Positions 12,479-30,780 of a stretch of DNA of 36,964 nucleotides are shown here, piece by piece (the stretch's first letter is position 1; each line of letters opens with the position of its first letter). The position numbers and the translations under genes are program-made. Under the pieces are notes generated by a model, which saw only the letters and a program-made list of their open reading frames with translations, did no database searches and had not been told where the DNA came from. The DNA lies in assembly GCA_030537135.1 (NCBI GenBank), contig JAUNOP010000029.1:1-36964 (forward strand), read 5' to 3'. This stretch comes from Eubacteriales bacterium (GTDB lineage: Bacteria; Bacillota; Clostridia; Lachnospirales; Lachnospiraceae).

Positions 12479-12507
12479 ACTATAGCACAGAATGTGGTAA
12501 ATAACAA
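12479..12507 (-). promoter_or_regulatory. Promoter of the esterase/ATP-grasp operon
   Basis: On the minus strand, TTGTTA (12502-12507), a 17-nt spacer, and TATAGT (12479-12484). The start codon is about 110 bases downstream. Confidence 0.65.
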
Positions 12508-12649
12508 TAAAATAACGTTTACAAGGACTTTTTTAATTGAAGAAGAATTGACATATAATGTGAAAATATTAAATATATTTTCTGTAATATGGAGAAAATT
12601 TAAGAAATTATCACAAATAAATAGGAAGATGTATGTAGACTGGAGACAT

Positions 12650-12805
12650 TTTCCCTCAAAAAAGCGCCAGGGGCAGGAGGGAATCGGCCTCAAAAGCATG
12701 CATATGATTGCAGAAAAATACCAGGGCATACTGGTCATGAAGGCAGAGGATAACCGATTTATTACAAAAATTGGCCTGCAGATACCAGAGACAGAGAACA
12801 GCTAA
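12650..12805 (+). pseudogene. Fragment of a GHKL sensor-kinase ATPase domain
   Basis: An open frame of about 50 codons reads FPSKKRQGQEGIGLKSMHM, then IAEKYQGIL and a final KAEDNRFITKIGLQIPE. This is the last part of an AgrC/GHKL-type histidine-kinase ATPase domain: the G-x-G-I-G-L-x-S turn, the I-A-E-K-Y-x-G helix and the last strand. The phospho-acceptor and first ATP-binding boxes are missing. The same frame can be followed upstream to about 12494, but that part is A/T-rich and does not match the domain. It is therefore a remnant of a deleted kinase gene. No start codon or ribosome site is apparent at the homologous boundary. Confidence 0.65.
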
Positions 12806-12856: not shown

Positions 12857-12887
12857 ACCAAAAATAATACCAAAATTAGAAAAAGAA
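12857..12887 (+). promoter_or_regulatory. A-rich repeated element, copy 1 (candidate operator)
   Basis: A 31-nt stretch centred on AATACCAAAATTAGAAAAAG. It differs from copy 3 (23670-23699) by about two substitutions and one inserted base. ACCAAAA occurs twice, 12 nt apart, as in direct-repeat sites of AraC-type regulators. A TAAAAT hexamer begins at 12915, exactly 50 bases after the TAATACC start, as in copy 2. Confidence 0.6.
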
Positions 12888-12998
12888 TACATGTTTTGAA
12901 GGAAGGTAAGCTGATAAAATAGATGTTAAAATAAATTGCTTCTTTGAAACTAAGCCTTGGCAGACACAGGCCTTGGTATATGCAAATCAATAGAAATC

Positions 12999-13027
12999 TT
13001 GCGGGAATCATGATGGAATGCTATAAT
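12999..13027 (+). promoter_or_regulatory. Second promoter ahead of the binding protein/kinase operon
   Basis: TTGCGG (12999-13004), a 17-nt spacer, and TATAAT (13022-13027), about 73 bases before ATG 13100. Confidence 0.7.
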
Positions 13028-13099
13028 TTTTGAAGAAATGATGTTACCGTATCAAGGAAGTCCCTTGACAAGAACTGGATTTTTATTGGAGTGAAACAC

Positions 13100-14746
13100 A
13101 TGAGAAAGTATAGAAAAATCACAGCCTCTATTTCGGCGCTGTGTGTATTGACGCTTGTGGGCTGTGCCAAAAGTGAGGCAGAGACAAAGAAAATGACAGC
13201 CAGGGAGGAGATTACCTGGGCAGAGCTGTACTGCGATGTAGACTGGTGGCATCCCGGTGCATGGAGTACAGAGAGCGGGACCATTACAGGAGAGATTACA
13301 AGGCAGACCGGCGTGGCCTTAAAGAGTACAGTTCCTCTCCAGAATGCGGACAAGCAGCTTAGCCTGATGCTCTTAAACGATGAGCTGCCGGATCTGGTCA
13401 CGGTTGTGAATTCCACACTGATAGGCCAGATTACATCATCAGGAAAGGTATGGAAGCTGGATGAATTCCTGGAAACCTACTGTCCGGATTCTCATTTGCT
13501 GAGCGCATTTCCGGAAGATATCAAGGAGGCTCTCATCAAGAGGGATGGAGCCTGGTACGCCTATCCATCCCATATGAATTCTGTAGATGCGAGGAAAATC
13601 TGGAAGCCCTGTGACTCCTATTATTGGGATTTGGTGAATTATAACGACAATAATGGAATCATGTGGAACCGAAATCTATTGGAGCGGCTTGGGATTTCTG
13701 TGGACGCCCTGTCCACAGAGGAACAGGTGCTGGACGCCTGGAACAGGGCGCGCAATTCGGATGTTTGGATAAACGGAGGGGAAATCATCCCTCTTCTGGT
13801 GGATGGCTCTGGCTATTGGGATCCAACAGTCAAGTATCTGCAGTATACCTTTGGAGCGGAATACATTGACAAGGACGGAAATTACAGGGATATCCTACTC
13901 TCGCCTGAGAGCAAGCACGCGTTGTATTTTCTGAATAAAGCCTGCAGGAATGGGTATCTGCAGCCAGAGCAGCTAAATTATACCAATGATACGGTGAAAC
14001 AGAAAATCGCATCAGGCAATGTACTCTGCTTTATTGGAAACGTTGCCAATACGGATCTGGACGCCACCGAATGGGTATCCTCTGGAGCGATTCTCTCCTC
14101 CCAGGGAAAAACTCCTGTTCTTGCCAAAAATCTCCAGGGAGGAATCGGCTGGATGCAGACATTTATTTCAAAGGACTGCGAAAACCCAAAGGAACTGGCA
14201 AGGTTCCTGGATTATATGACGAGCGAGGAGGGAATGCTGGATTGGTATTTTGGAACCGAGGGAGAGCATTATTCTGTGGGAGAGGATGGCCGGATTATTC
14301 AGAACCAGGAGCAGGCAGATCTGAAATCCAATTACAGCGAAACCAATCTGGCTGTCTTTTGGATGTTTGAGAATACAAGCTGGATAAGAAGCATTTTGGC
14401 ACCCCCAGAGGAGAGCAGCCGTCAGGCACAGGACGACGCCATAAAGAACGCCTTTGGAAAGGATAAGCATACGGTCATTTATAATTCAGCTCCTCTGGCA
14501 CTTTATAGCAGCCTGCTTTCCGATAACCCGGAGCTGTTGAAAATGGATGAGGAGCTAACGAGCCTTAAGGAAGCCTGGATAAGCAGGGTGATATTAGCAG
14601 AATCAGAAATAGAGTTTGAGCAAGAGTATGAAGCAATGCAAAAGGCCTTTTGCGCACACGGCATTGCGGAAATTGACGAGGAAAAAAACCGCATCTTTCA
14701 GGAAAATCAGAGGGAAATGGGAATCTATCTGAAAAAGATTAATTAG
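13100..14746 (+). CDS. Extracellular solute-binding lipoprotein (CUT1 sugar type)
   Basis: A 548-residue lipoprotein. The signal sequence ends in LTLVGC with Cys22, so the mature protein is tethered outside the membrane. The body has the size and pattern of LplA/family-1 oligosaccharide-binding proteins: repeated LPDLVTV, GAWYAYPSHMNS, MWNRNLLERLGI, a GGIGWMQTFISKDCENPKEL segment and a C-terminal helix region rich in Glu. The ATG at 13100 was preferred over a GTG at 13091 because TGGAG (13087-13091) is at correct spacing. It lies directly before a sensor kinase gene (11 bases between) rather than the permeases, which suggests a role as ligand-presenting partner of the kinase. It could also supply sugar to the permeases at 17440-19312. 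Confidence 0.85.
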   Translation: MRKYRKITASISALCVLTLVGCAKSEAETKKMTAREEITWAELYCDVDWWHPGAWSTESGTITGEITRQTGVALKSTVPLQNADKQLSLMLLNDELPDLVTVVNSTLIGQITSSGKVWKLDEFLETYCPDSHLLSAFPEDIKEALIKRDGAWYAYPSHMNSVDARKIWKPCDSYYWDLVNYNDNNGIMWNRNLLERLGISVDALSTEEQVLDAWNRARNSDVWINGGEIIPLLVDGSGYWDPTVKYLQYTFGAEYIDKDGNYRDILLSPESKHALYFLNKACRNGYLQPEQLNYTNDTVKQKIASGNVLCFIGNVANTDLDATEWVSSGAILSSQGKTPVLAKNLQGGIGWMQTFISKDCENPKELARFLDYMTSEEGMLDWYFGTEGEHYSVGEDGRIIQNQEQADLKSNYSETNLAVFWMFENTSWIRSILAPPEESSRQAQDDAIKNAFGKDKHTVIYNSAPLALYSSLLSDNPELLKMDEELTSLKEAWISRVILAESEIEFEQEYEAMQKAFCAHGIAEIDEEKNRIFQENQREMGIYLKKIN

Positions 14747-14757
14747 AGGTGGTGAGT

Positions 14758-16464
14758 ATGAAAAGGAGGAAATTAAAAGCCAGCCTGTTCGGACGATTTA
14801 TCGCGATCACACTTCTGGTACTGGCATTTCTCACAGGATGCTTCTGGGTGATAAATCAGTACGAAAAACAACTCTTAAAGGAAAATACGCTGCAGATGAA
14901 TGAGAAGCTTCTTCAGCAGATAAACAGCAAGGTAGAAGAGTTCTATAAGACCTTCCAGAACATTGCGTCCATGGTGATGTATTCTCCTACAGCTTACAAT
15001 TATGTAAAGGCAAACGTAAAGGAACGCATCCTTACCAGGGATGATTTGTTTTCTGTGTTTTTAAGCGCCATGGAATTGGAGGAAAATATTGACGGCATTT
15101 ATCTGTTTGATGAAAACCTGCGCCAGATTGTTGGTATGAAAAAAGAAACCGTACTGACTGCCCGACTCGAGGAGACCCTGGAGGAGATTCCAAATCAGAT
15201 GACCTTTGGTAATCTGATTCAGCCAGAAGGGGAGGAAGTCTATTATCTTATTCAGTTTCCAATTTATGATTTGGATAATCCACAATATGGGGTATTGCTT
15301 GGCATGGCAGTTTTTCAAATGAAAATAGACGGATATATGGAGCTTCTTGGGGATACCCAGGCAACCGAGTATTCACAGATGTATCTGATAGATGGAAATC
15401 AGAGGGTGATTGCCTCCGATAGTCTGGAAAAGCTGGAAGAGATTACAGAGGATATGCTCAATGACCCGGAGGAATTCCATGTACAGGTGCAAAAATGCGG
15501 CATAGGAGACTGGCAGATTGTAAGCCGTATTCCCGTATGGGATCTCTATCGGGAGTCCAGGGGAGTGAAATGGATGATGCAGTATATTTTCGTGATTGCT
15601 GCCGTTCTTATGGGCTGTCTGGTGCTGTTTTGCTATGTGTATCTCATACGTCCTATCCGGCAGCTTGAGCAGTTTATAAAAATGCTGACAGAGGATTCCT
15701 CCTGCCGCCTGGAAAGCAGACGGGAGGATGAGATAGGAACCGTTATCCGCAGCATGAACCACATGCTGGATAAAATCGACGAGGCCAATCGGGAACAGCA
15801 GATTTCCCAGAAAAAGGCCTTTGAGGCGGAAATTGCCAAGAAGCAGATGCAGGTTCTGGCCTACCGCAACCAGATTAATCCGCATTTCCTCTATAATACC
15901 TTTGAGTGTATCCGGGCCATGGCTCTGTATTATGACGCCGAGGATATCGCGGAAATTACAATGGCCCTTTCCAGGATATTCCGGTTTGCCACCAAAGGGG
16001 AAAATATTGTGTCCATTTCCCAGGAGGTGAACTATATCCGGGAATATGGAAAAATTATCGGTTATCGTTTTATGGATAAGATTGACATACAGATAGAAGT
16101 GGAGCCTGGATGCCAGGAAAAAAAGGTGATTAAGCTGCTGCTTCAGCCTTTGGTGGAAAATGCGGTATTTCACGGATTGGAACAAACCATGGAAGGCGGA
16201 GAGGTTTTGGTGAGCGTTCGTTCCTATAAGGAGAAGTATCTGGAAATACGCATAGAGGACGACGGCTGCGGAATCCCTCCGGAAAAGCTGGAGCATATCA
16301 TGCATACCTTAAGCAGCAGCAAAAAGGAGGAGGGAATAGGCATTGCCAATATTTACCAGAGGCTCCACCTGTTCTATGGAGATGATGTGATATTTGAGAT
16401 ACAAAGCCGGGAGGGGGAGGGAACCCAGATACGAATCGTGATTCCTGACCATATTTCGGAATAG
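14758..16464 (+). CDS. YesM-type sensor histidine kinase
   Basis: A 568-residue membrane kinase. A first membrane helix (about 12-32) and a second (275-296) enclose an extracellular region of some 240 residues, likely a Cache/PAS-like sensor. A HAMP linker follows (RPIRQLEQFIKMLTED). The His_kinase domain has QINPHFLYNT with phospho-acceptor His376. The ATPase part shows the N box LLLQPLVENAVFHG (Asn468), the G1 box EDDGCGI (about 501-506) and a second glycine box EEGIGIANI. This is the LytS/YesM group of kinases that usually sense sugars. ATG 14758 follows AGAGGTGG (14745-14752); GTG codons at 14749 and 14752 are alternatives. It sits between the binding protein and its response regulator and is surely co-transcribed. 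Confidence 0.9.
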   Translation: MKRRKLKASLFGRFIAITLLVLAFLTGCFWVINQYEKQLLKENTLQMNEKLLQQINSKVEEFYKTFQNIASMVMYSPTAYNYVKANVKERILTRDDLFSVFLSAMELEENIDGIYLFDENLRQIVGMKKETVLTARLEETLEEIPNQMTFGNLIQPEGEEVYYLIQFPIYDLDNPQYGVLLGMAVFQMKIDGYMELLGDTQATEYSQMYLIDGNQRVIASDSLEKLEEITEDMLNDPEEFHVQVQKCGIGDWQIVSRIPVWDLYRESRGVKWMMQYIFVIAAVLMGCLVLFCYVYLIRPIRQLEQFIKMLTEDSSCRLESRREDEIGTVIRSMNHMLDKIDEANREQQISQKKAFEAEIAKKQMQVLAYRNQINPHFLYNTFECIRAMALYYDAEDIAEITMALSRIFRFATKGENIVSISQEVNYIREYGKIIGYRFMDKIDIQIEVEPGCQEKKVIKLLLQPLVENAVFHGLEQTMEGGEVLVSVRSYKEKYLEIRIEDDGCGIPPEKLEHIMHTLSSSKKEEGIGIANIYQRLHLFYGDDVIFEIQSREGEGTQIRIVIPDHISE

Positions 16465-16502
16465 GTATATGGGAAGAAATTTTACAGGAAAGAGGGAAAA
16501 AG

Positions 16503-17252
16503 ATGTATCGGGTATTTTTGGCAGATGATGAAATGTGGGTATTATTTGGGCTGAAAAAGTTGATAGAGAAGTCAGGGCTTCCTTTTCAGATTGTCGGAGA
16601 GGCTACCAACGGTGTGACCACTCTGGAGGAACTGGAAAAGAAAAGACCAGATGTACTATTTTCGGATATTCGGATGCCCGGACTGGACGGACTAGAGCTT
16701 CTGGAAAGGATAAAGGAGAGAGGACTGCAGGTAGAGGTGATTTTTGTCAGCGGCTACGCAGAATTTGAATATGCAAGGCGGGCGCTTCAGATGGAGGCCT
16801 TTGATTATATTCTAAAGCCTGTGGAGCAGGAGATATTGAACAATATCCTCCTGCGCCTTATGAAAAAGCTAAGTAGGGGGGGCATCGAGGCAGATAAAAC
16901 GGATCAGAAGGAGCAAAAGGAACAGGAGATGATAAGCCCGACAGTGGTCAAGCAGATGGTCAACGAGATTAAAGAACATTATACAGAGAATATCACTCTG
17001 GTGGCTCTTGCGGAAAAATACGGGTTCAGCGTGGGCTATGTCAGCTCTCTTTTAAAGGATGAGCTGGGTCTATCCTTCTCAGAGTATATTACAGCCAAGC
17101 GGATACAAAAGGCAAAGGAGTTGCTGGCGGATTTTCGGCTTTCCATTGATATGGTGGCAGAGCAGTCCGGGTATAACGATTATTTTTATTTTACCAAAGT
17201 GTTCAAGAAGGTTGTAGGCATTTCGCCCAGTAAATACCGTAAAAATTTGTGA
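16503..17252 (+). CDS. YesN-type response regulator with AraC DNA-binding domain
   Basis: A 249-residue two-domain regulator. The receiver domain (1-120) has the acidic pair DDE (8-10), phospho-acceptor Asp55 in FSDIRMPG, Ser83 in VSGYAE and Lys105 in ILKPVE. A short charged linker (DKTDQKEQKEQE) follows. The AraC domain (about 150-249) shows two helix-turn-helix units (LVALAEKYGFSVGYVSSLL and IDMVAEQSGYNDYFYFTKVF) and ends GISPSKYR. It is the partner of the kinase just upstream. Such regulators activate adjacent sugar-transport operons by binding direct repeats beside the -35 region. The A-rich element at 12857, 17276 and 23670 is a candidate target. ATG 16503 follows GAGGG (about 16493-16497). 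Confidence 0.9.
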   Translation: MYRVFLADDEMWVLFGLKKLIEKSGLPFQIVGEATNGVTTLEELEKKRPDVLFSDIRMPGLDGLELLERIKERGLQVEVIFVSGYAEFEYARRALQMEAFDYILKPVEQEILNNILLRLMKKLSRGGIEADKTDQKEQKEQEMISPTVVKQMVNEIKEHYTENITLVALAEKYGFSVGYVSSLLKDELGLSFSEYITAKRIQKAKELLADFRLSIDMVAEQSGYNDYFYFTKVFKKVVGISPSKYRKNL

Positions 17253-17275
17253 AAATCATACAAAATGCAGAAAAA

Positions 17276-17305
17276 ATCAAAGATATTACCAAAACACAAA
17301 AATAA
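17276..17305 (+). promoter_or_regulatory. A-rich repeated element, copy 2 (candidate operator)
   Basis: A 30-nt stretch around ATATTACCAAAACACAAAAA that matches copy 3 (23670-23699) at 26 of 30 positions. It ends 28 bases before the -10 hexamer TATAAT of the ABC operon. Confidence 0.7.
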
Positions 17306-17310
17306 TTTCA

Positions 17311-17339
17311 TATGAGAATTGAGGAAACTCTTTTATAAT
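17311..17339 (+). promoter_or_regulatory. Activator-dependent-looking promoter of the ABC operon
   Basis: TATAAT (17334-17339) is perfect, but the hexamer 17 nt upstream is TATGAG, a poor -35. The A-rich element sits immediately upstream, as expected for an activated promoter. Confidence 0.6.
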
Positions 17340-17439
17340 GTGCTTGAAAAGAGAAAAGCGCATATAGAAGAGTTTCTTGTGTTTTAGAAACATTTTTATG
17401 CGGCTTTCAGGAAAGAGAAAAAGGAGGAGGAAATGTAAA

Positions 17440-18396
17440 GTGAAAAAAAGCAAATCAGGTGCTGCTGTAATGAAAGCACCGAAAAAACCCTTTCTGAGTA
17501 AGGTGAAGGACAGCAGGGTGCTGCTTCTGATGTGCCTGCCGGCAATTATTTTCTTTGTGGTATTTAACTACTGTCCGCTGCCTGGCGTGTATATGGCCTT
17601 TACGAACTATAACTTCCGGGATGGCATCTTTGGAAGTCCCTTTGTAGGAATGAAGAACTTTGAATTTCTGTTTCGTTCCGGAGAGCTGTGGAACTTGACC
17701 AGAAATACGGTTCTGTATAACCTGGCATTTATCTTGATCGGCAATATACTGCAGATTACCCTGGCAATCATGCTGAACGAAATTGGAAACAAGTGGTTCA
17801 AGAAGGTTTCCCAGACATTAATGTTTCTGCCGTATTTCATTTCCGTGGTTCTGATCGGCGCGATTGCCTTCAATATTCTGAACTATGATACCGGCGCCCT
17901 GAATACGCTGATTCGTTCCTGCGGAGGAAATCCCATTAAGATTTACAGTCAGGCAGGAATCTGGCCATTCATTATTATTTTGTGCAACCTCTGGCAGCAG
18001 ACAGGCTATGGCTCTGTGGTTTACTTTGCAGCAATCTGCGGAATCGACGCCGGCATGATTGAGGCAGCAGAGGTAGACGGAGCCACAAGCTGGCAGAGAA
18101 TCCGGTATATCATTCTCCCCAGTCTGAAACCGACCTTCATCATTTTGCTGCTGTTCGCTCTTGGCGGCATTATGAAGGGCAACTTTGGATTATTCTGGAA
18201 CCTGGTAGGAAATAACTCACAGTTATATTCCACTACAAACATTATTGAGACATTCGTATACCGCGCCATGATGTCACAGAACAACTTCGCCACATCTTCT
18301 GCAGTGGGTCTGTATCAGTCAGTCTTTGGCTTTGTACTGGTAATGTTCAGCAACTGGCTTGTAAAACGAATCGACCCGGATTACGCATTATTCTAG
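17440..18396 (+). CDS. CUT1 sugar ABC transporter permease (LplB-like)
   Basis: A 318-residue permease with six membrane segments, beginning with LLLMCLPAIIFFVVFNYCPLP after a basic N-terminus. The inner-membrane permease signature EAAEVDGATSWQRIRYIILP (the EAA loop that docks the ATPase) is present near residue 210. The sequence is typical of the first permease of LplB/YtcQ-linked oligosaccharide importers. The start is GTG at 17440, set by AGGAGG at 17425-17430; a longer frame from 17377 lacks a ribosome site. It precedes the second permease by ten bases. No ATPase gene lies in the operon; such systems commonly share an MsmX-like ATPase encoded elsewhere. Confidence 0.9.
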   Translation: MKKSKSGAAVMKAPKKPFLSKVKDSRVLLLMCLPAIIFFVVFNYCPLPGVYMAFTNYNFRDGIFGSPFVGMKNFEFLFRSGELWNLTRNTVLYNLAFILIGNILQITLAIMLNEIGNKWFKKVSQTLMFLPYFISVVLIGAIAFNILNYDTGALNTLIRSCGGNPIKIYSQAGIWPFIIILCNLWQQTGYGSVVYFAAICGIDAGMIEAAEVDGATSWQRIRYIILPSLKPTFIILLLFALGGIMKGNFGLFWNLVGNNSQLYSTTNIIETFVYRAMMSQNNFATSSAVGLYQSVFGFVLVMFSNWLVKRIDPDYALF

Positions 18397-18406
18397 GAGG
18401 TACGAG

Positions 18407-19312
18407 ATGGCAAATCAAAAAACAAAAATTAAGAAAACAGCCAGTACAAAAGCGGTAAAGGGTGTGTCTTATACAGTGATTACCCTGTTTTCCCTGGTGT
18501 GCCTGCTTCCGTTTATCCTGATTATTTCAGCATCCTTCAGTACAGAGGCAACCATTGTGCAGGAGGGCTTTGGACTCCTTCCAAAGGGCTTTACCTTATC
18601 TGCCTATGCATGGGTATTCCGTTATCCGAAGATGATTCTTGGTTCCTACGCAGTTACAGTGATTATGACCATATGCGGAACAGCGGTTGGGTTATTTATT
18701 ATTTCCATGACAGGCTATGCGCTTCAGAGAAAGGACTTCCCGTTCCGAAACGCTATTTCCTTTTTCATTTACTTTACAACCCTGTTTTCTGCTGGTATGG
18801 CGCCCACTTTTATCTGGATTTCCAGATATCTGAATCTGCGCGGCAGCTACCTGGCAGTGTTCCTTCAGCTTCTTATGAGTCCATGGCTGATTATTCTGAT
18901 GAAGAACTTTGCCAAGTCTGTACCCTATGAGATTACAGAATCCGGCAAGCTCGACGGTGCGGGAGACTTTAAGATTTTTACCTCTCTGATTCTCCCCATG
19001 TTAAAGCCGGCACTTGCCACTGTGGGACTGTTTCTGGCACTTGGCTACTGGAATGAATGGTATCAGTCGTCCCTGTACTTAGGCTCCAGAGTGGATTATA
19101 AACCGCTGCAGTATTATCTGTACGGAATCATCAATGAGGCCAACGCCCTGAAGGGCTCTCTGGCAGGAGCAAACGTTACCTATACGGATCTTCCATCCAA
19201 TACCTTAAAAATGGCTACGGCAGTTGTGGCTACCGGCCCCATCATTTTCCTGTATCCATTTGTGCAGAAGTACTTTATCAGCGGTATTACCGTCGGTGCG
19301 GTAAAGGGCTGA
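18407..19312 (+). CDS. CUT1 sugar ABC transporter permease (YtcP/AraQ-like)
   Basis: A 301-residue permease with six membrane helices. After a basic lead (NQKTKIKKT) comes the first helix with LFSLVCLLPFILIISASFS, then the family pattern FISMTGYALQRKDFPFRN. The EAA-like loop reads ESGKLDGAGDFKIFTSLILP near residue 180. It ends in PFVQKYFISGITVGAVKG, the usual AraQ/YtcP C-terminus. The ATG at 18407 follows AGGAGG at 18396-18401. It forms the channel together with the protein encoded just upstream; the binding protein follows after a stem-loop. Confidence 0.9.
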   Translation: MANQKTKIKKTASTKAVKGVSYTVITLFSLVCLLPFILIISASFSTEATIVQEGFGLLPKGFTLSAYAWVFRYPKMILGSYAVTVIMTICGTAVGLFIISMTGYALQRKDFPFRNAISFFIYFTTLFSAGMAPTFIWISRYLNLRGSYLAVFLQLLMSPWLIILMKNFAKSVPYEITESGKLDGAGDFKIFTSLILPMLKPALATVGLFLALGYWNEWYQSSLYLGSRVDYKPLQYYLYGIINEANALKGSLAGANVTYTDLPSNTLKMATAVVATGPIIFLYPFVQKYFISGITVGAVKG

Positions 19313-19327
19313 TACATAGGATATGTA

Positions 19328-19346
19328 AATACCATGAAATGGTATT
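19328..19346 (+). promoter_or_regulatory. Intercistronic stem-loop before the binding-protein gene
   Basis: AATACCAT (19328-19335) pairs perfectly with ATGGTATT (19339-19346) around GAA. It lies between the second permease and the binding protein. Such hairpins often protect or process mRNA so that the binding protein is made in excess; that role is inferred. Confidence 0.5.
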
Positions 19347-19379
19347 CATATATAAAAATTATATTTTAAGGAGGCTACA

Positions 19380-20960
19380 ATGAAAAGAAAGAATTTTACA
19401 AGACGCATGCTTACCATGACCTTGTGCGCAGCCATGAGCGTAGGTATGGTACTCCCTGCTATGGCAGAAGAAAATGCAGATGCATTTGAAGGAATCGACA
19501 CTTCAAAGCATGAGGTTATCAACATGCTGGTTCTCGGAAACAAGCCGACCAACGGCAGGCTGGAAGCCATGCTGGAGAAGCTGAACGAGGTTCTCACAGA
19601 AAAGGTAAACGCAGAGCTGGAGCTTACCTACATTGAGTGGACAGACTGGCAGACACAGTACAATGTACAGCTCCTTAGCGGCGACAGCAGCATGGATATT
19701 ATTACCACTGCAACGGACTGGCTGTTCGGCTGGGAAAATGCGCAGAAGGGCGCCTTCCTTCCTTTATCTGAGGATATGCTCCAGACCTATGCGCCAAAGA
19801 CCTGGGCACAGGTAGATGAAGCAGGAGACTGGGATATCTGCAAGCTGGATGATGAAATTTATTTTATTCCAGAGGATCATTATACACAGTATGTAAACCA
19901 TGGCCTTTTCTACCGCGGAGACTGGGCAGCAGAAGCAGGGCTGGAAAATGGTGATGTGAAATCCTTTGAGGATCTGGATACCTATTTCAGCTACATTCTG
20001 GACAACAAGGAAGGTGTGATTCCTTTTGACGCTACAAAGAACAGCGGCGCTCCATGCCATGGATATCTGGTATCCAACACAGATAACATTGAGTTTACCA
20101 ATGTTTATGTAGGTAACTATACCTTCTGGTTCGGCGAGTCTGTGGATGATCCGTACACCGTTACTTCTCCGTATATGGAAAGCGACGCACTCTATGATGC
20201 AGCAGATCTGATGAAGAAGTGGAACGATGAGGGCGTGTGGAGAGAGGACGTACTCAACTATGACGGAGACACACGTGAGGCATTTTATGCAGGAACCTCT
20301 GGTTCAGACCAGCATCATAGCCAGACCTACTACAGCCAGGTAAAACCGAACATGGATATTAAGCAGCCAGGTTCTGATGTAAAGATGTATTACTGGGGCG
20401 AGGACAACAACAATGTTTCCAAACCGCTCAAAACCCATGGTGCAGCAGCCATCAGCGCATGGTCCGAGCATCCGGAAAGAGCGCTCATGGTTTACGATCT
20501 GCTCCGCAATGATGAGGAATGCTATCGTCTGATCAACTATGGTATTGAAGGAACCGACTACATTGTTACAGAGGACGGCAAGCTGGATTATCCGGAAGGC
20601 TATGATTCCAGTACAGACGCACTTGGCGCAAACTTCTGGTGCGGACGTAACGATGACCTTGAGCTTGAAAACTCCTTCAACTGGGAAGGAACCGACGACA
20701 TGATCGCAAATTACGACAGCTTTGCATTTGAATATCCATATGAGGACCTGATCGTTGACAAGACCTCTATTGAGGCAGAGCAGGCAGCTATGGCAAACGT
20801 GCTTGCAGAGTACCTGCCGCAGCTTTACTGGGGTAAATTTGACGACCCGCACGCTGCTATCGACGAAATGAGAGAAAAACTCATTGCAGCAGGCTATGAG
20901 GACGTGAAGGCATCTATTCAGGCAGACATGGACGCATATGTAGCTTCCAAGGCAGAATAA
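19380..20960 (+). CDS. Sugar ABC transporter substrate-binding protein, no lipobox
   Basis: A 526-residue secreted binding protein of the large LplA/YtcQ oligosaccharide group. The N-terminus is basic, then hydrophobic, and ends at VLPAMAEE, a signal peptidase I site near residue 29. There is no lipoprotein Cys box (the early TLC has Leu at -1). The mature part contains NVQLLSGDSSMDIITTATDW, VNHGLFYRGDWAAEAGL and HGAAAISAWSEHPERALMVY, all typical of this class. ATG 19380 follows AAGGAGG (19368-19374). It is the third gene of the permease operon. Gram-positive importers normally tether this protein, so the lack of a lipobox is odd; wall retention or a permease-bound form are possible. Confidence 0.85.
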   Translation: MKRKNFTRRMLTMTLCAAMSVGMVLPAMAEENADAFEGIDTSKHEVINMLVLGNKPTNGRLEAMLEKLNEVLTEKVNAELELTYIEWTDWQTQYNVQLLSGDSSMDIITTATDWLFGWENAQKGAFLPLSEDMLQTYAPKTWAQVDEAGDWDICKLDDEIYFIPEDHYTQYVNHGLFYRGDWAAEAGLENGDVKSFEDLDTYFSYILDNKEGVIPFDATKNSGAPCHGYLVSNTDNIEFTNVYVGNYTFWFGESVDDPYTVTSPYMESDALYDAADLMKKWNDEGVWREDVLNYDGDTREAFYAGTSGSDQHHSQTYYSQVKPNMDIKQPGSDVKMYYWGEDNNNVSKPLKTHGAAAISAWSEHPERALMVYDLLRNDEECYRLINYGIEGTDYIVTEDGKLDYPEGYDSSTDALGANFWCGRNDDLELENSFNWEGTDDMIANYDSFAFEYPYEDLIVDKTSIEAEQAAMANVLAEYLPQLYWGKFDDPHAAIDEMREKLIAAGYEDVKASIQADMDAYVASKAE

Positions 20961-20978
20961 GAGATTGTGTTTTTCAGA

Positions 20979-21013
20979 CAGAGGCGTGGGCAAAACCATG
21001 CCTCTGTTTTTTA
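20979..21013 (+). terminator. Terminator of the ABC operon
   Basis: CAGAGGCGTGG (20979-20989) pairs with CCATGCCTCTG (20996-21006) along 11 pairs with one G-T, followed by TTTTTT. Confidence 0.85.
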
Positions 21014-21158
21014 CGCGATAAGCCCGTCAAACGGCCGCCGTGCGTACACGAGCGGACATTTGACGGGCAACGGACAGCGAGGAGCTTTGCTGTGAGCTGC
21101 CCGTGGGATCACGCCGGATAGGGGAACTGGCTTCCCCTATCCGATCGCGATAAGCCCG
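21014..21158 (+). repeat. Structured element flanked by 13-nt direct repeats
   Basis: CGCGATAAGCCCG occurs at 21014-21026 and again at 21146-21158. Between them are three hairpins. The first is GCCCGTCAAA/TTTGACGGGC (21022-21031, 21059-21068). The second is ACGGGCA/TGCCCGT (21063-21069, 21098-21104) with inner ACAGC/GCTGT. The third is a perfect 12-bp stem (21115-21126, 21132-21143). The first two share ACGGGC and cannot form together. It could be a switching leader of the AraC gene or a small repetitive element. Confidence 0.55.
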
Positions 21159-21174
21159 GAAAGGAGAGAGACGG

Positions 21175-22116
21175 ATGTATTTTGTGATGGACAGCCGTAT
21201 CCTGCCAAAGGTTCGGCTGGCGGATTATTTTATTTTGAAGCCTCCCTGCGCGCATAAGAAGCGGGTGCCTCATGAATATATTGCCTATCTGGTGGAAAAG
21301 GGAGAGCTGTATCTTATGGAGGAGGGAATCACCTACCATTTAAGACCAGGAGATTTTATTCTCCTGAATCCGGAGAGCTATCATGAGGGGAAGCTTATCA
21401 CCTACTGCGAATATTACTATATTCATTTCCACCACGAGGCTCTTCGTCTGGCAGAGGACGGGGAGAGCGCAATGCACGAACAGATGATGGAGATCCGCAG
21501 GGATGCTCTGAGAAGCGATTCCTGCGAGGAGCAGAGCAAAATCAGCCAGGGTCTCATCATCCCCAAGTATTGCCATATACAGGACGAGACTTTGCTGGCG
21601 TCCCTGACCAGGCAGCTTCTCTCTGTGGTGACGGCGAATTTTGATCATATGGAATACTATAAAGCCTTAAGCGGTATTCAGTTTTTGTCCTTTTTGATAG
21701 AGCTGTCACGAAGCTGCTTATCCTTACAGCTCCAGGAGAGCAAAATGACCACTGCCAGGGGGTATAAAAAGGTGCTGGAGGTACAGAGCTTTCTCCATGA
21801 GTGCTACCGGGAGCCGGTGAGCGGGGATTCTCTGGCGGAAAAATTCGATATGAATTTTGACTATCTAAACCGCCTGTTCCGCAAGAACATAGGAAAGCCT
21901 GTCTTTCAGTACCTCCGGGACATCCGCATTGCCAAGGCCAAGGAGCTTCTCACCACGACCTCCATGCGGATTGTGGAGGTAAGCGATTGTGTGGGTTTTA
22001 CGGATGAGAGCTATTTTAGCAAGGTTTTTAAAAAACAAACCGGCATCTCCCCGGCAGACTATGCCAGAACCGAGGCAAAGGCAGAAGGAAACCCTCATTC
22101 ACAGCTGCCTAGGTGA
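21175..22116 (+). CDS. AraC-family transcriptional regulator (cupin type)
   Basis: A 313-residue regulator. The N-terminal 150 residues form a sugar-binding cupin (KRVPHEYIAYLVEKGELYL, YHLRPGDFILLNPESYHEG, CEYYYIHFHH). The C-terminal 100 residues carry two helix-turn-helix motifs (SGDSLAEKFDMNFDYLNRLF and IVEVSDCVGFTDESYFSKVF) and end QTGISPADYAR. The ATG at 21175 follows AAGGAG (21161-21166). It lies downstream of the ABC operon behind a terminator and a structured leader, and its 3' end overlaps that of the convergent MATE gene by eight bases. It is a second candidate regulator of the local sugar genes, besides the YesN-type protein at 16503. Confidence 0.85.
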   Translation: MYFVMDSRILPKVRLADYFILKPPCAHKKRVPHEYIAYLVEKGELYLMEEGITYHLRPGDFILLNPESYHEGKLITYCEYYYIHFHHEALRLAEDGESAMHEQMMEIRRDALRSDSCEEQSKISQGLIIPKYCHIQDETLLASLTRQLLSVVTANFDHMEYYKALSGIQFLSFLIELSRSCLSLQLQESKMTTARGYKKVLEVQSFLHECYREPVSGDSLAEKFDMNFDYLNRLFRKNIGKPVFQYLRDIRIAKAKELLTTTSMRIVEVSDCVGFTDESYFSKVFKKQTGISPADYARTEAKAEGNPHSQLPR

Positions 22117-23476
22117 GCGTCTTTTTTATCCATTTTTTGGATTTCCAGCGGAAGAAATAGTTGATTCCTCGGAACGCTTCATCCATGGCAAAGGCGATCC
22201 AGCACCCGGTAAGTCCCAGCCCAAGCCGAACTCCCAGGATATAGGAGAACAGTACGCTCATCACCCAGCAGGAGCAGATAGACACCACCATGGGGAACAC
22301 CACGTCGCCGGCGCCCCGGAGGGAATTTTCTTCAATATGATTAAAGCCCCGGAAGATTTCTACGAAAATATCAAAAAACAGCAGAGTTGTTCCTGCCTTC
22401 AGGATGATGGGATCCCTGGTAAATAGGGAAAGCAGCGGCCGTCCCAATAGAAACAGCAGGATAGACAAGGAGGCATTCAGAAGAAGCGTCACCTTCAGAT
22501 TCTGCAGATTCAGCCGATAGGCCTGTTCGTATTTCCCTGCGCCGCACAGCCATCCAATGAGCAGGGCAGTGGAAAGCCCCAGAGACATGCCAAGCACATA
22601 CACATAAAACACCAGGTTTGATACATAGATTTTGGTGGATATGGCGGACATTCCCACAAGTGCGATGATGGAGGTGGTAACTGTCTGGGAAATATTGTAG
22701 GACATGCTACTGATTCCTCCTGGAATGCCTACACCAAGAATGGCTTTGATTTTGGAAAAGCTTTTCCATGTTATGTGAGCAAAGTTCAGCCCCAGAGGCA
22801 GGCGAAGCAGCAGAAGGACCATGCATGCCAGGGCAGCAGCGCGGCTGAAATTGTTGCACCAGGCGATTCCGGAGACGCCCTTTAAGGGAAAAGAAACCGG
22901 CTGGAAGATGACCAGATAATTCAGCAGCGCATTGAGGACATTCATGCCAAGGGACACCCCAACAGAAATTCTTGGAAAGCCATAGCTTTTAAACACAGAA
23001 GAAATAATGGAAAAAAGCGCGCCCAGGAAGGAAAAGCGCATACAGATAGAAAAATAATCTACTGCATTTTCCAGAATTTCTCCCTCAATATTCATAAGAC
23101 GCATACACGGAAGCGCCAGACTGGAAATCAAAAGGCTTACAAAAAGGCTCAAAAACCCTCCAAGCACCAGGGAACACAAAACAGCATCAGAGGTCTGCTC
23201 CTTTTTGCCTGCTCCCAGATAGTGACTGATCACAATGGAGGCTCCGGTTCCGATAACAGTATAAAAGGTCTGGATCATGCCGGAAAACTGGCTCGCAGCT
23301 CCCACAGCAGCCACTGCAGTATCAGAAAAATAGGACAGCATAAAGGTATTGACAGTTCCCATGAAATTCATAAGGAACATTTCCAGGAAAAAGGGAAGAA
23401 AAACCTTTGTGAGGGTCATAGTTCCCTGGGGTGTTTCCACTTTTCCAAGGGATGGGTCATAAGTAAAAAATTGCAT
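22109..23476 (-). CDS. MATE-family multidrug/metabolite efflux transporter
   Basis: A 455-residue protein with about twelve membrane helices in two related halves. Typical MATE stretches are seen: FMGTVNTFMLSYFSDTAVAA in the first half, GTGASIVISHYLGAGKKEQT after the second helix, and GLSTALLIGWLCGAGKYEQA at the equivalent place in the second half. MATE carriers export drugs or metabolites in exchange for sodium or protons; the substrate here is unknown. The ATG at 23476 follows AGGAG on the minus strand. It is convergent with the AraC gene and divergent from the GH2 gene, so it appears to be a bystander within the sugar locus. Confidence 0.9.
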   Translation of the reverse strand: MQFFTYDPSLGKVETPQGTMTLTKVFLPFFLEMFLMNFMGTVNTFMLSYFSDTAVAAVGAASQFSGMIQTFYTVIGTGASIVISHYLGAGKKEQTSDAVLCSLVLGGFLSLFVSLLISSLALPCMRLMNIEGEILENAVDYFSICMRFSFLGALFSIISSVFKSYGFPRISVGVSLGMNVLNALLNYLVIFQPVSFPLKGVSGIAWCNNFSRAAALACMVLLLLRLPLGLNFAHITWKSFSKIKAILGVGIPGGISSMSYNISQTVTTSIIALVGMSAISTKIYVSNLVFYVYVLGMSLGLSTALLIGWLCGAGKYEQAYRLNLQNLKVTLLLNASLSILLFLLGRPLLSLFTRDPIILKAGTTLLFFDIFVEIFRGFNHIEENSLRGAGDVVFPMVVSICSCWVMSVLFSYILGVRLGLGLTGCWIAFAMDEAFRGINYFFRWKSKKWIKKTLT

Positions 23477-23512
23477 TGAAATCTCTCCTTTCCAATCGGA
23501 AGTATGGATTTT

Positions 23513-23518
23513 ATTATA
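23513..23518 (-). promoter_or_regulatory. -10 element of the MATE gene
   Basis: TATAAT on the minus strand about 40 bases before the start codon. The -35 candidate (ATTCTA at 17 nt) is poor. Confidence 0.45.
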
Positions 23519-23600
23519 GTGATTTAAAGGAAAAATAGAATGGAGGAGAGAGGGAAAACTTGTAAATTAGCGACTTTTGTGAGAACATGGGGATATGTTG

Positions 23601-23659
23601 ATCAAGCGGAAATTCGTAATGCCCACAGGGTACGATGTCCGCGTCGCTACTTGCTTGAT
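23601..23659. other. Nested inverted repeats in the MATE/GH2 divergent region
   Basis: ATCAAGC/GCTTGAT (23601-23607, 23653-23659) encloses GCGGA/TCCGC and CGTA..CCC/GGG-TACG. It lies upstream of both flanking predicted promoters, so it belongs to neither known transcript. Confidence 0.4.
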
Positions 23660-23669
23660 ACGTTAAAAC

Positions 23670-23699
23670 ATCAAAAATATTACCAAAATAGAAAAAGAA
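23670..23699 (+). promoter_or_regulatory. A-rich repeated element, copy 3 (candidate operator)
   Basis: A 30-nt stretch around ATATTACCAAAATAGAAAAA, 26 of 30 identical to copy 2. A TATACA hexamer (23733-23738) follows at 55 bases, with no good -35, upstream of the GH2 gene. Confidence 0.7.
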
Positions 23700-23768
23700 C
23701 TCCATACCAAAAGAAGGACTTTGTTGATACCTTATACATATGATGTTGGAGTCAAAAGGAGGTATCAT

Positions 23769-26147
23769 ATGGATACAGTGATAAAAGATCTGTGTATGAA
23801 TTGGAAGTTTCATTTTGGTGAATGTGAAGAGGCATGGTTCAAGGGATTTGACGACAGAAGCTGGGAATGCGTTTACCTTCCTCATGACTGGTCCGTAAAA
23901 CAGCCGTTTTCAAAGGAATATTCCAGCGGAACCGGTTATCTTTGCGGAGGAATTGGCTGGTACAGGCTGCATTTTTCCATTCCAGAGGAGTATAGGGGAA
24001 AATCTATTCGTATTGTTTTTGATGGTGTCTACAAAAACAGCCAGGTCTGGTGCAACAGCTATTACCTGGGAAAACGCCCTAATGGATATATTTCCTTTTC
24101 ATACGATCTCACCCCTTTTTTAAATTACGGGCAAGAGGAGAATGAAATCAGCGTAAAGGTTACACACACGGATTTAGCAGATTCTCGCTGGTTTACAGGA
24201 AGCGGCATTACCCGCAAGGTGCAGCTGGTGATAGAGGAACCAGTACATCCTGTGGAATATGGCGTTTTCTTGAAGACCATACAGGCGGACAAGAAGCAGG
24301 CGGAAATTATGGTAGAGCATGAAGCAGCAAATACGACAGGTCATGATGCGAAGCTGGCTGTGGAGACGGTTCTTCTTGATAAAGATCAGAAGCGCATAGC
24401 AGGAAAGAAGATAGAAATGCATGTGAAAGCAGGAGAAAGCAAAAAGACCTCTGTGACAGATACGCTTACTGACCCAAAGCTATGGTCTCCTGAAAATCCG
24501 TATTTGTATACATTGAAGGTGTATTATGCATTGGATGGGAATTCTCCTTATTTGGTATGGCAGGAGCAGGTGGGAATACGTACCCTCCAATTTGATCCTG
24601 ACAACGGCTTTTTCCTGAACGGCGAGGAAATGAAAATCAAAGGCGTCTGTGTACATCATGACGCAGGCTGCCTTGGAGCTGCTGTGCGGCCGGAGATATG
24701 GGAGAGACGTCTGGAACAATTAAAAGGCTGCGGCTGCAATGCCATCAGATGCAGCCATAATCCTCACATGCCGGAGCTATATGAGCTGTGTGATGAAATG
24801 GGCTTTTTGGTAATGGATGAAGCATTTGATGAATGGGAAAACGCAAAGAATAAGTGGTCTACAGGGCATAATGTGTATCCGCCGAAGCATCAGGGATATT
24901 TTGAAGACTTTCCCCAGTGGCATGAAGCAGATCTGAGGGCCATGGTAAGGCGTGACAGGAATCATCCCTCTGTGATTTTATGGAGCATAGGAAATGAAAT
25001 TGATTACCCCAATGATCCATATTGTCATCCAAGGTTTCAGACCATGACAGGAAATAATGACGCAGATAAACCAGCAGAGGAACGGAAATATAACCCGGAT
25101 CGGCCAAATGCAGAACGTCTGCCCGTTCTGGCGACTCATCTTGCAGAAATTGTCCGCAGGTCAGACACATCAAGACCGGTTACCTTGGCAGCCGCTTTTC
25201 CAGAGCTGTCTTCTTATCTTGGGTTTTTTGAGCCATTGGACGTAGTGGGCTATAATTACAAAGAACATCTGTATGAGACAGACCATAAACGTTTTCCGAA
25301 CAAGCCGCTGCTTGGAAGTGAAAATGGCCACAGCTATGCTGCATGGCTTGCTGTGAAAAACAATTCCTATATCAGCGGACAGTTTCTCTGGACAGGCATT
25401 GATTATCTGGGAGAAGCAAAGGGATGGCCGGTTCGTGGCTCAGGGGCCGGAATTATCACCTGCGCAGGGTTTGCAAAACCAGAATATTATAGAAGAAAGT
25501 CATTTTGGTCGCAAAAGCCTATGCTTCATATAGCGTCCAGGAATGCTAAGGGAGTATTGATTGATTCATGGAACTATGAAGAGGGGGAGCTTGTCACAGT
25601 CGAATGCTATTCGAATCTGCCGCAGGTGGCCTTGTCCCTTAACGGCAGGGAATTGGGCAGAGCAAAAGAATATACAGCAGAGGGCGTTTATCTTTTCCAG
25701 GTGCCTTATGAGGCAGGCTGCCTTGAGGCAACGGCTTACGATGATAACGAAAGCCCGTGCCTTACAGATACACTTCGGACTGTAGAAAAGGCGGAATGCG
25801 TTATCTGCAGCCTGTGGCAAGAAAATGAGACAAAAAGAGAAGCTGCCCGGACAAACAGAGAAAAGCCGGGATATTTGTATCAGATCGAAATCAGGCTCTG
25901 TGACAGAGCAGGCAGTCTGGCAGCTTCAGACGACAGGATGATAGAGCTGCAGGTTTCCGGCGCAGGAGAATTGGCTGGCCTGGAAAGTGGAAATCTTTCA
26001 GACTGTACGCCATACTATGAGAGCAGAAGACAGACCTGTGCGGGCAGGCTGATCGGATATGTGCGCAGAACTGGAGACGGAGCGATAAAGGTTCAGATAA
26101 CAGCAGACATGGAAGGAAAAAACAGCTGCATATTAGAGATGGAGTAA
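23769..26147 (+). CDS. GH2 family glycosidase (beta-galactosidase-like), cytoplasmic
   Basis: A 792-residue retaining glycosidase of family GH2 without a signal peptide. The order is: N-terminal sugar-binding jelly roll (1-160, with GGIGWYRLHF and RWFTGSGITRKV), immunoglobulin-like domain (160-275), TIM barrel (275-590) and a C-terminal DUF4982-like beta domain (VALSLNGRELGR near 640). The acid/base Glu410 is in ILWSIGNEID and the nucleophile Glu518 in LLGSENGHS; HHDAGCLG and IRCSHNPH near 297 and 326 are usual GH2 landmarks. ATG 23769 follows AGGAGG (23757-23762). The A-rich element upstream ties it to the ABC and kinase operons. It could remove beta-galactose from imported oligosaccharides; other GH2 specificities (e.g. 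beta-glucuronidase) cannot be excluded. Confidence 0.88.
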   Translation: MDTVIKDLCMNWKFHFGECEEAWFKGFDDRSWECVYLPHDWSVKQPFSKEYSSGTGYLCGGIGWYRLHFSIPEEYRGKSIRIVFDGVYKNSQVWCNSYYLGKRPNGYISFSYDLTPFLNYGQEENEISVKVTHTDLADSRWFTGSGITRKVQLVIEEPVHPVEYGVFLKTIQADKKQAEIMVEHEAANTTGHDAKLAVETVLLDKDQKRIAGKKIEMHVKAGESKKTSVTDTLTDPKLWSPENPYLYTLKVYYALDGNSPYLVWQEQVGIRTLQFDPDNGFFLNGEEMKIKGVCVHHDAGCLGAAVRPEIWERRLEQLKGCGCNAIRCSHNPHMPELYELCDEMGFLVMDEAFDEWENAKNKWSTGHNVYPPKHQGYFEDFPQWHEADLRAMVRRDRNHPSVILWSIGNEIDYPNDPYCHPRFQTMTGNNDADKPAEERKYNPDRPNAERLPVLATHLAEIVRRSDTSRPVTLAAAFPELSSYLGFFEPLDVVGYNYKEHLYETDHKRFPNKPLLGSENGHSYAAWLAVKNNSYISGQFLWTGIDYLGEAKGWPVRGSGAGIITCAGFAKPEYYRRKSFWSQKPMLHIASRNAKGVLIDSWNYEEGELVTVECYSNLPQVALSLNGRELGRAKEYTAEGVYLFQVPYEAGCLEATAYDDNESPCLTDTLRTVEKAECVICSLWQENETKREAARTNREKPGYLYQIEIRLCDRAGSLAASDDRMIELQVSGAGELAGLESGNLSDCTPYYESRRQTCAGRLIGYVRRTGDGAIKVQITADMEGKNSCILEME

Positions 26148-28944: not shown

Positions 28945-30780
28945 ATGAAAAAGCTGATTACAAAATTAGAACCGTTTTTAGATAAAATTCTTGGAACAAA
29001 GCTCAGATATCGAATGCTGATTCTCTACTTTTGCGGAGGAGTTCTGCCTGCCATTCTAATCGGGGGGTATCTTATACAAGGTACCAGAAATATCCTGGTA
29101 GAGCAGACAAAGACAGTAGAGGTGACAGAGCTTGAGATGGCCAGAAGGCAGCTCGAAGAAATTCTTACCACTGTGAATATGGTTTCAAAATATTTTTTCT
29201 TTGATGAGGAACTGGAGAAAATCGCCTTTGAGCAGTATGAGGATTATCAGGAGATGGTTGACGACTACAAGGCTTATACTGCTTTTGTGGATTATGGACA
29301 GTATTACAATCAGCTGATTTCCAGGTTCACTGTTTATCTGGAAAATGAGACCATTCGGGGAAACTCACAGTTTGTCAAGGTGAATGATGCCATTCGGGAG
29401 CAGAAATGGTATCAGAATGTGCTTAATAAGGGAGGCGGCGCTCTTTGGCAGAACGTACCCTCCAGTATGAATGCTGATGAAGGTTTTGCCCTCACCAGAC
29501 TTTTGAAGACAAAGCGCGGAAAAAATGTGGGCGTACTGGTTCTTCACATCCAGAAAGAACGAATCAATGATATTTTAAGGAGCAGAGAGTACGATACCTT
29601 TGTTGCTCTGGACAAAGACCAGATTATTTCTGAGCGGATAAAGAGCGATATAGATTTGGATAACATCACGAAATTTCTTCCAGAGGAAGATTTTGATACC
29701 TATCAGGATATGGTTTCTGTGGACGGAAAAAAGTACATCCTGACAAGTGTGGGAATTTCTCCGGATGAATCGCAGGATTCTCTGCAGATTGTCAGTATGC
29801 GCTCTCTTCAGAAGATTTTGCAGGAGGCGAACAGACAAAATCAGAAGAGCGTGTACCTTTTTCTCCTCAGTATAGGCCTCTCCTGCTTTATGATTGCCGC
29901 CTTTTCCTGGTCCTTCAGTGAGCGGGTCGCCCGCTTTCATAAGGAAATGAGAAAAGCAGCAGAGGGAAACTTTCAGCTTGAGAAGAAGCTGGGTGGAAAT
30001 GATGAAATCAGTGAGCTGTACGATTATCTGGGAACTATGATTTTTGAAATCCAGAAGCTTTTATCTGAAATTTATCAGGAAAAGCTCCACGCAGAGCGTC
30101 TGAAGCGAGAGCAAAAGGAAGCAGAGTTTAAAATGCTGGCAAGCCAGATTAACCCGCACTTCCTTTACAACACGTTGGAGGTCATCCGTATGAAGGCCAG
30201 AATGAACAAGCAGTATGAGATTGAGGAGCTGGTGAAGATGCTGGCCAAAATCCTCAGAAAAAATATTCAGGCAGGAAGTCAGGATGTATCTATCTGTACA
30301 GAGGCAGAGCTGGTTGCCTGCTACCTCAGAATTCAGCAGTACCGCTTTGGAGACCGCATCCAGTATGAAATTCATGTGGATCCGGAGCTTGAGGAACACA
30401 AAATCTTGCCCCTTCTTCTCCAGCCGATTGTGGAAAATTCTATTATTCATGGATTGGAAATCAAGGAGGGAATCGGCCATATTTTCATCAATATCACACA
30501 GACAGATAAGCGGATTTGCATTGTGATTGAGGATGACGGTATGGGAATGACAGAGGAAACGCTTCAGAAAATCCAGAGAGACATGAATCGAAGAAACCAG
30601 GACGGAACGCATATTGGAATCGGAAATGTACATCAGAGGGTGCGTCTGAGGTATGGAGAGGCTTATGGGGTGAAAATCAACAGCGAATGGCAGAAGGGTA
30701 CCAAGGTGGAGATTGTACTTCCAAAGGAAGAGAATGAAAAAGAAAGAGGGATAGAAGTTGTACAAGGTAATGGTTATTGA
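28945..30780 (+). CDS. YesM-type sensor histidine kinase (second system)
   Basis: A 611-residue membrane kinase: first helix about 23-44, extracellular sensor domain 45-300 (Cache-like), second helix about 303-324, and HAMP linker. Phospho-acceptor His405 lies in SQINPHFLYNTLE. The N box is LLLQPIVENSIIHG (Asn498), the G1 box IEDDGMGM (about 528-535) and the second glycine box THIGIGNVHQR. It is longer than, and only moderately similar to, the kinase at 14758. ATG 28945 follows AAGGA (28931-28935). The 3' end overlaps the response-regulator start by 23 bases, so the two are translationally coupled. It lies between GH42 and GH31 genes and probably senses the oligosaccharide these enzymes degrade. 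Confidence 0.9.
   Translation: MKKLITKLEPFLDKILGTKLRYRMLILYFCGGVLPAILIGGYLIQGTRNILVEQTKTVEVTELEMARRQLEEILTTVNMVSKYFFFDEELEKIAFEQYEDYQEMVDDYKAYTAFVDYGQYYNQLISRFTVYLENETIRGNSQFVKVNDAIREQKWYQNVLNKGGGALWQNVPSSMNADEGFALTRLLKTKRGKNVGVLVLHIQKERINDILRSREYDTFVALDKDQIISERIKSDIDLDNITKFLPEEDFDTYQDMVSVDGKKYILTSVGISPDESQDSLQIVSMRSLQKILQEANRQNQKSVYLFLLSIGLSCFMIAAFSWSFSERVARFHKEMRKAAEGNFQLEKKLGGNDEISELYDYLGTMIFEIQKLLSEIYQEKLHAERLKREQKEAEFKMLASQINPHFLYNTLEVIRMKARMNKQYEIEELVKMLAKILRKNIQAGSQDVSICTEAELVACYLRIQQYRFGDRIQYEIHVDPELEEHKILPLLLQPIVENSIIHGLEIKEGIGHIFINITQTDKRICIVIEDDGMGMTEETLQKIQRDMNRRNQDGTHIGIGNVHQRVRLRYGEAYGVKINSEWQKGTKVEIVLPKEENEKERGIEVVQGNGY

Follow-up and report, generated by a model that had tools for sequence, protein, structure and literature searches.

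Three near-identical elements in the window, a stretch of 36,964 nucleotides from a Lachnospiraceae genome, are very probably binding sites of one sugar-sensing regulator that is encoded between them. On the strength of the sequence comparisons presented below, we estimate a probability of roughly 0.86 that the element serves the response regulator RR1 as its operator. Signalling from a solute-binding protein (SBP) through a sensor kinase to RR1 would then lead to class II activation of the regulator's own operon, of a sugar importer and of glycosidase genes. The sites, their geometry, the order of the surrounding genes and the co-occurrence of site and regulator gene are directly established. 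Related gut and rumen bacteria have this site together with the same regulator gene.

Results

Gene content of the window

The genes for the SBP, the YesM-type kinase and the REC-AraC regulator are consecutive in the window (Table 1), and this order is kept in relatives. RR1 is the last gene of the resulting lipoprotein-sensor/kinase/regulator operon. The two hydrophobic stretches of the kinase lie near residues 9 and 280-284, as judged by eye and with a simple scale. RR1 carries a REC domain with its phosphoacceptor Asp and an AraC-type HTH; D8, D9, D55 and K105 are invariant in 11 of 11 RR1 orthologs. Across orthologs, the second HTH is almost invariant and the first more variable. A gene for a MatE transporter lies on the opposite strand between the gene for the AraC protein (21175) and the GH2 gene.

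A 103-aa ORF (12494-12805) just 5' of copy 1 of the element has the appearance of a kinase remnant: of a GHKL ATPase domain (HATPase_c_5) it retains just the end. Between GH42 and GH31/GH3 lies a second kinase/YesN pair (28945-32287; 611 and 509 aa), which has no operator copy nearby and may run a separate regulon.

Table 1. Operator copies, -10 hexamers and genes discussed in the text (bits from the 12-site model; offsets counted from TACC)
Feature	Position	Strand	Remarks
Operator copy 1, 36-mer	12858..12893	+	TACC at 12868; 5' of SBP-kinase-regulator operon; 42.2 bits
-10 hexamer TAAAAT of copy 1	12915..12920	+	at +47
Putative sensor solute-binding lipoprotein (SBP_bac_1)	13091..14746	+	lipobox-like LVGC near N-terminus, by eye
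YesM-type sensor histidine kinase	14749..16464	+	two hydrophobic stretches, HAMP, His_kinase, HATPase_c
Response regulator RR1, 249 aa, REC + AraC-type HTH; proposed binder	16503..17252	+	
Operator copy 2, 36-mer	17277..17312	+	TACC at 17287; 24 nt 3' of RR1 gene, 5' of ABC operon; 42.8 bits
-10 hexamer TATAAT of copy 2	17334..17339	+	at +47
ABC sugar permease	17377..18396	+	listed ORF; true start may be further in
ABC sugar permease	18407..19312	+	
Transporter solute-binding protein (SBP_bac_1 + DUF3502)	19380..20960	+	
AraC protein with AraC_binding domain; rival binder, disfavoured	21175..22116	+	
Operator copy 3, 36-mer	23671..23706	+	TACC at 23681; 5' of GH2 gene; 40.1 bits
GH2 family gene	23721..26147	+	listed ORF; ATG after AAAGGAGG at 23769
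Weak -10 hexamer TACCTT of copy 3	23728..23733	+	at +47

Three copies of one element

A sequence-only reading of the window had placed three near-identical elements at 12857-12887, 17276-17305 and 23670-23699, and they are present at those coordinates; its count of 26 identical positions out of 30 between copies 2 and 3 was obtained again by eye. The inserted base that it had assumed in copy 1 is unneeded. When TACC is set as offset 0, the three copies line up without gaps as an A-run, TACCAAAA, a second A-run, CAT at +22 and a -10 hexamer at +47. The equal spacing of the -10 that had been described for copies 1 and 2 is correct and extends to copy 3, where the hexamer is poor and a better-scoring one is found at +58.

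A 22-nt pattern derived from copies 2 and 3 (up to 3 mismatches) matched the window at exactly these two copies, with 0.00 matches expected and 0 in 100 shuffles; copy 1 is too divergent from the other two to fall within its reach. With the final matrix, whose training set includes all three copies, copies 1, 2 and 3 scored 32.0, 35.7 and 39.6 bits, and no other place in the window exceeded 2.8 bits.

The proposed regulon in the own genome

The assembly of the own genome (3.07 Mb, 91% complete) contains five matches at 40-44 bits to a 12-site model built from own and other genomes, the sixth match reaching 14.4 bits. All five strong sites belong to the training set of this model. A matrix built from four sites (the three window copies and a site on contig C33) located the fifth, on contig C51, untrained at 37.2 bits. 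The earlier claim that three sugar operons carry the element is confirmed, and the strong set of the genome is larger than the three noted. Rather than occurring at random across the genome, the five strong sites stand before the sensor operon, the ABC operon, the GH2 gene and two glycosidase clusters. The C33 site lies about 340 bp 5' of the first gene of a cluster that encodes an arabinofuranosidase, a GH43 protein and a melibiase, and the C51 site lies 5' of arabinofuranosidase and GH115 genes; we take the arabinofuranosidases to be GH51 and the melibiase to be GH27 enzymes. At C51 the listed ORF starts a little 5' of the inferred transcription start, so that the true start codon probably lies further in. 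This target set points to an arabinose-bearing plant glycan, e.g. arabinogalactan or arabinoglucuronoxylan.

A pattern search of the own genome (up to 3 mismatches) gave 18 matches, against 10 in the reversed control. They include two window copies, the real C33 site and one C51 match that overlaps the real site in another register. None of the other pattern matches (L003, L008, L013, L015 and L016 were inspected) is among the five strong model matches.

Contig C51 also carries, 3' of the arabinofuranosidase-GH115 genes, an N-terminal fragment of the sensor SBP (L042 8582-9355; 249 residues, 71% identical). The 19-kb stretch around it gave no kinase or regulator match, and the fragment is perhaps the remnant of a second system. 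About 100 bp 3' of it lies a glycine riboswitch aptamer (RF00504, 48.8 bits; L042 9454-9545). The genome contains 86 occurrences of a dispersed repeat, CAAGCAAGTAGCGAAGCGGAC and its variants, on many contigs (up to 3 mismatches allowed); the reversed control gave 0. One occurrence is found at 23602-23662 of the window, just 5' of copy 3, where the repeat folded as DNA is not notable (z -1.17), and another at C33:33227-33247, 3' of the C33 promoter.

The site follows RR1 orthologs across genomes

Among 397 genomes of the family, taken as one identical set for the ortholog search and the operator scans, 10 further genomes encode RR1 orthologs with 47-64% identity. The site lies directly 3' of the regulator gene in eight of these ten (in G294 with an additional base in front of CAT). 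G145 has two sites, before two GH2 genes, and no site was found in G328, an RR1 genome that is 68% complete. G407 and G198 were outside the matrix used for this search.

The AraC-family one-component regulator at 21175 (AraC_binding + HTH), which the sequence-only reading had named as the rival, is encoded between copies 2 and 3 and has the appropriate type of HTH. However, an ortholog of this protein is missing (E<=1e-30) from the ten other RR1 genomes, nine of which have sites, one as a shifted variant, and it was never the top match of any kept ORF in the mapped loci. The missing orthologs rule against it, and we consider it very unlikely that this protein binds the three elements. The binder which that reading had preferred, the YesN-type regulator at 16503 (RR1), is backed by the comparison, as the site tracks RR1 orthologs and not most paralogs.

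A scan of the contigs of named genomes with the regulator alignment yielded 80 loci: 28 ortholog loci at >=46% identity, the partial L176, and 51 paralog loci at <=38%. L176, which has a site and whose regulator is related at 49-50%, was for these reasons dropped from the 52 lower-ranked loci before paralogs were counted. The ortholog loci L108, L110, L118, L123 and L125 are, judging by equal lengths, on the same contigs as loci in the family-genome set. With the kinase as query, the named-genome contigs gave no relative, and 145 genomes, including the own, gave one other match at E<=1e-60.

In 19 of the 28 ortholog loci, a matrix made from the five own sites alone put the best match of the locus 0-150 nt 3' of the RR stop codon. 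Eleven of these matches exceeded every reversed-matrix control (highest 16.0) and eight did not, so that for the eight only their placement counts as evidence. Among the 28 ortholog loci (46-68% identity), a refined matrix found the site in 25 (L125 is counted through its shifted variant), in 22 of them 0-129 bp past the RR match; orthologous operons of other genera thus also have the element in front of them. The final matrix gave scores of at least 29.7 bits for 24 of the ortholog loci, and none of the 51 paralog loci (31-38%) exceeded 14.0 bits, the maximum for paralog loci having been 16.0 bits with an earlier matrix. Twenty-one of these 24 loci were in training. The remaining three, L107, L109 and L134, did not enter the training of model R3 and scored 36.8, 34.8 and 29.7 bits; they are the closest relatives in gene order, and only the site 3' of the regulator was found in them. 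The three ortholog loci free of a site (L111, L114 and L122) belong to genomes with untrained sites elsewhere: G517 has three, two of which lie just 3' of additional RR1-like genes (48 and 52%); G518 has four, each 5' of a GH2-like gene; and G519 has one, 5' of the transporter binding protein.

In the family scan, matches of at least 24.5 bits were confined to 8 of the 11 RR1 genomes, with 0 in the 386 others. Seven of these eight genomes supplied sites to model R1, and most sites at this level were trained, so that the untrained site-bearing cases weigh more: G407 in the family scan and, with R3, G407, G198, L107, L109, L134, G517, G518 and G519. The family scan missed G198 although its site sits in place. 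Weak matches (E<=0.05) occurred in 138 of the 397 genomes, and those below 24 bits away from RR1 were treated as chance. When 36 genomes were scanned with R3, only G345, G452 and G530 reached E<=0.01 outside RR1 carriers, with a best score of 21.3 bits. Of the weak matches of the family scan, those in G452 and G345 were inspected; an adjoining RR1 homolog is absent or present only at 26%. Model R2, made from the five own sites, proved too weak for whole genomes, reaching E<=0.01 in 3 of 10 RR1 genomes and in 0 of 27 others. The genome searches score part of the first-look candidates (6 or 12 per genome), so weak matches can be lost.

A YesN paralog, either the 509-aa regulator at 30758 or another one, could bind the sites alone or together with RR1. 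A case of this kind may be seen in G251, where a similar site (C44, L188 8693-8759; 24.5 bits), followed by a -10-like TATGAT, lies 3' of the gene for a 582-aa YesN paralog and 5' of that paralog's SBP operon. Its position indicates that paralogs can use a similar operator; cross-binding of paralogs at RR1-type sites is possible, and the operator style may be older than the RR1 clade. For the protein at 30758, however, a search of 30 other genomes, of which 10 have RR1, gave no match at E<=1e-60, and hence it cannot account for the sites elsewhere. Nor does a further window site lie near its neighbour genes, and the site is missing at the 51 paralog loci and at 5 same-genus homologs (35-41% identity; 60 genomes searched). 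We regard binding by a paralog as very unlikely, and RR1 remains the preferred binder.

Many RR1 orthologs, several of them from rumen samples, precede a different transporter type. The ATPase of this type comes closest to those for arabinose, xylose and ribose, with scores that do not reach NCBI's cut-offs.

Promoter geometry and structure of the motif

We compared 30 sites that had been collected with operator matrices excluding the -10. The shifted variant of L125 was left out, and the -10 was known beforehand for copies 1 and 2 only, from the first reading. TA...T stands at +47 in 30 of the 30 sites and the best -10 is located there in 27, while CAT stands at +22 in 28. If the -10 hexamer is assigned to -12 to -7, the operator extends from about -67 to about -35. 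Hexamers at a spacing of 16-18 bp match the -35 consensus at 4 of 6 positions at most, in agreement with the earlier statement that copies 1 and 2 have no good -35. The proposed layout of an AraC-type activator site holds as well: the placement at the -35 position is that of class II, with the -10 at a constant distance. This layout is reminiscent of araI.

The CAAA-type direct repeat about 12 nt apart, which had been read as part of this layout, can be seen in the letters but is not the conserved feature. Across the 30 sites the motif matches itself best at a shift of 20 bp (-4.6), then at 19 (-8.5), and scores -28.1 at 12, so that the 12-nt repeat is rejected as the basis of the operator. 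Tentatively, one might prefer direct half-sites that recur imperfectly at about 20 bp, or about two helical turns; the self-match score is negative at every shift tried, even at 20 bp, so any repeat is loose. In L127, L129 and L130, a second, overlapping register of the motif lies 18-19 bp 5' of the operator, possibly as the site of an additional regulator subunit.

Since the motif is A-rich, an UP-element-like contribution is possible. One might go further and regard the elements as A-tract or UP-element promoter sequence, or as duplicated promoter copies, with no specific regulator involved. They adjoin the -35 region; copy 1, C33 and C51 have GATAAAATA in common at the -10; and copy 1 and C33 share a 66-bp DNA match (78.8%). 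Against this, the most informative positions in the 30 sites are the C residues of TACC and CAT, despite the A-rich remainder, the compared promoters show little conservation outside the operator and the -10, and the presence of the site tracks RR1 across genera. We thus find an explanation without a regulator highly improbable and retain the reading of the element as the RR1 operator.

Discussion

Relation to known systems

The regulon is nearest to CuaDSR, the gene layout of which it matches. In this system of Ruminiclostridium cellulolyticum, the sensor SBP binds the kinase and the sugar is cellobiose (PMC10384115). As described there, an SBP/kinase/REC-AraC operon likewise adjoins an ABC operon, which CuaDSR activates (PMC10384115). 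In contrast, CuaR has 538 aa with a middle part of 318 aa, whereas RR1 has 249 aa and no such part, and cuaDSR is described as constitutively expressed, whereas the operon of the window has its own site (PMC10384115). The main text of that paper uses none of the terms operator, promoter and binding site (PMC10384115).

No record from Clostridium beijerinckii was among the 80 regulator loci kept. Its XylFII-LytS-YesN system reportedly consists of an SBP, a kinase and a YesN regulator controlling a monosaccharide ABC transporter; in this its gene layout is similar, and many RR1 orthologs precede a transporter of such a type. A solved XylFII-LytS complex is named in PMC10384115.

Tandem-repeat sites 5' of promoter elements have been described for AraC-type two-component regulators of Caldicellulosiruptor bescii, which are inferred activators of sugar genes (PMC8579813). 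These regulators differ from RR1, and the likeness was judged from the description of the sites (PMC8579813). XydR of the XydS/XydR system of Clostridium cellulolyticum is, like RR1, a response regulator with an AraC-type HTH; it activates glycosidase genes, and its effector domain binds 5' of its targets (PMC3572039). No agreed operator is given for XydR; the source lists shared sequences (PMC3572039). No matching motif was found in the accessible parts of PMC11034029 and PMC10766802. A search of the open-access literature by words rather than motif letters, covering titles and the start of abstracts, found no description of the RR1 regulator or its motif.

Proposed mechanism and significance

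We propose that the lipoprotein SBP (13091) captures a plant-glycan sugar and would signal its presence to the YesM-type kinase (14749), which would in turn phosphorylate RR1. RR1 could then bind the operator, probably as a dimer on the imperfect repeat of about 20 bp, covering roughly -67 to -35 relative to the inferred start. The promoter-proximal end of the operator would occupy the place of the -35, and RR1 would recruit RNA polymerase to the -10 at its fixed distance, in the class II, AraC-like manner. The predicted targets of activation are the ABC importer, the GH2 gene and the two unlinked clusters (arabinofuranosidase-GH43-melibiase and arabinofuranosidase-GH115), as well as the regulator's own operon; the position of copy 1 before the sensor operon implies positive autoregulation, and hence a positive feedback. 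The inducer would presumably derive from an arabinose-containing glycan.

To our knowledge, an operator has been assigned to few of the YesM/YesN-type pairs in gut Lachnospiraceae. New in this work are the operator of the RR1 clade, its fixed promoter geometry and its target list, so that one regulator clade is given all three with precision across many species. Operator and targets lead to a substrate prediction that is directly testable, and the promoter is a candidate sugar-inducible promoter for gut anaerobes.

A broader reading, for which we see the odds as evenly balanced, is that Lachnospiraceae have one portable promoter code, made up of RR1 and an operator of about 36 bp with a locked -10. 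This code would have stayed constant while the surrounding parts were exchanged, namely the gene 5' of the kinase, the ABC transporter (of two types) and the targets (GH2, GH43, GH97, GH127, arabinofuranosidase or rhamnosidase), and autoregulation would have been added in the lineage of the window. If this is true, gaining the promoter could suffice to bring new sugar loci into the regulon.
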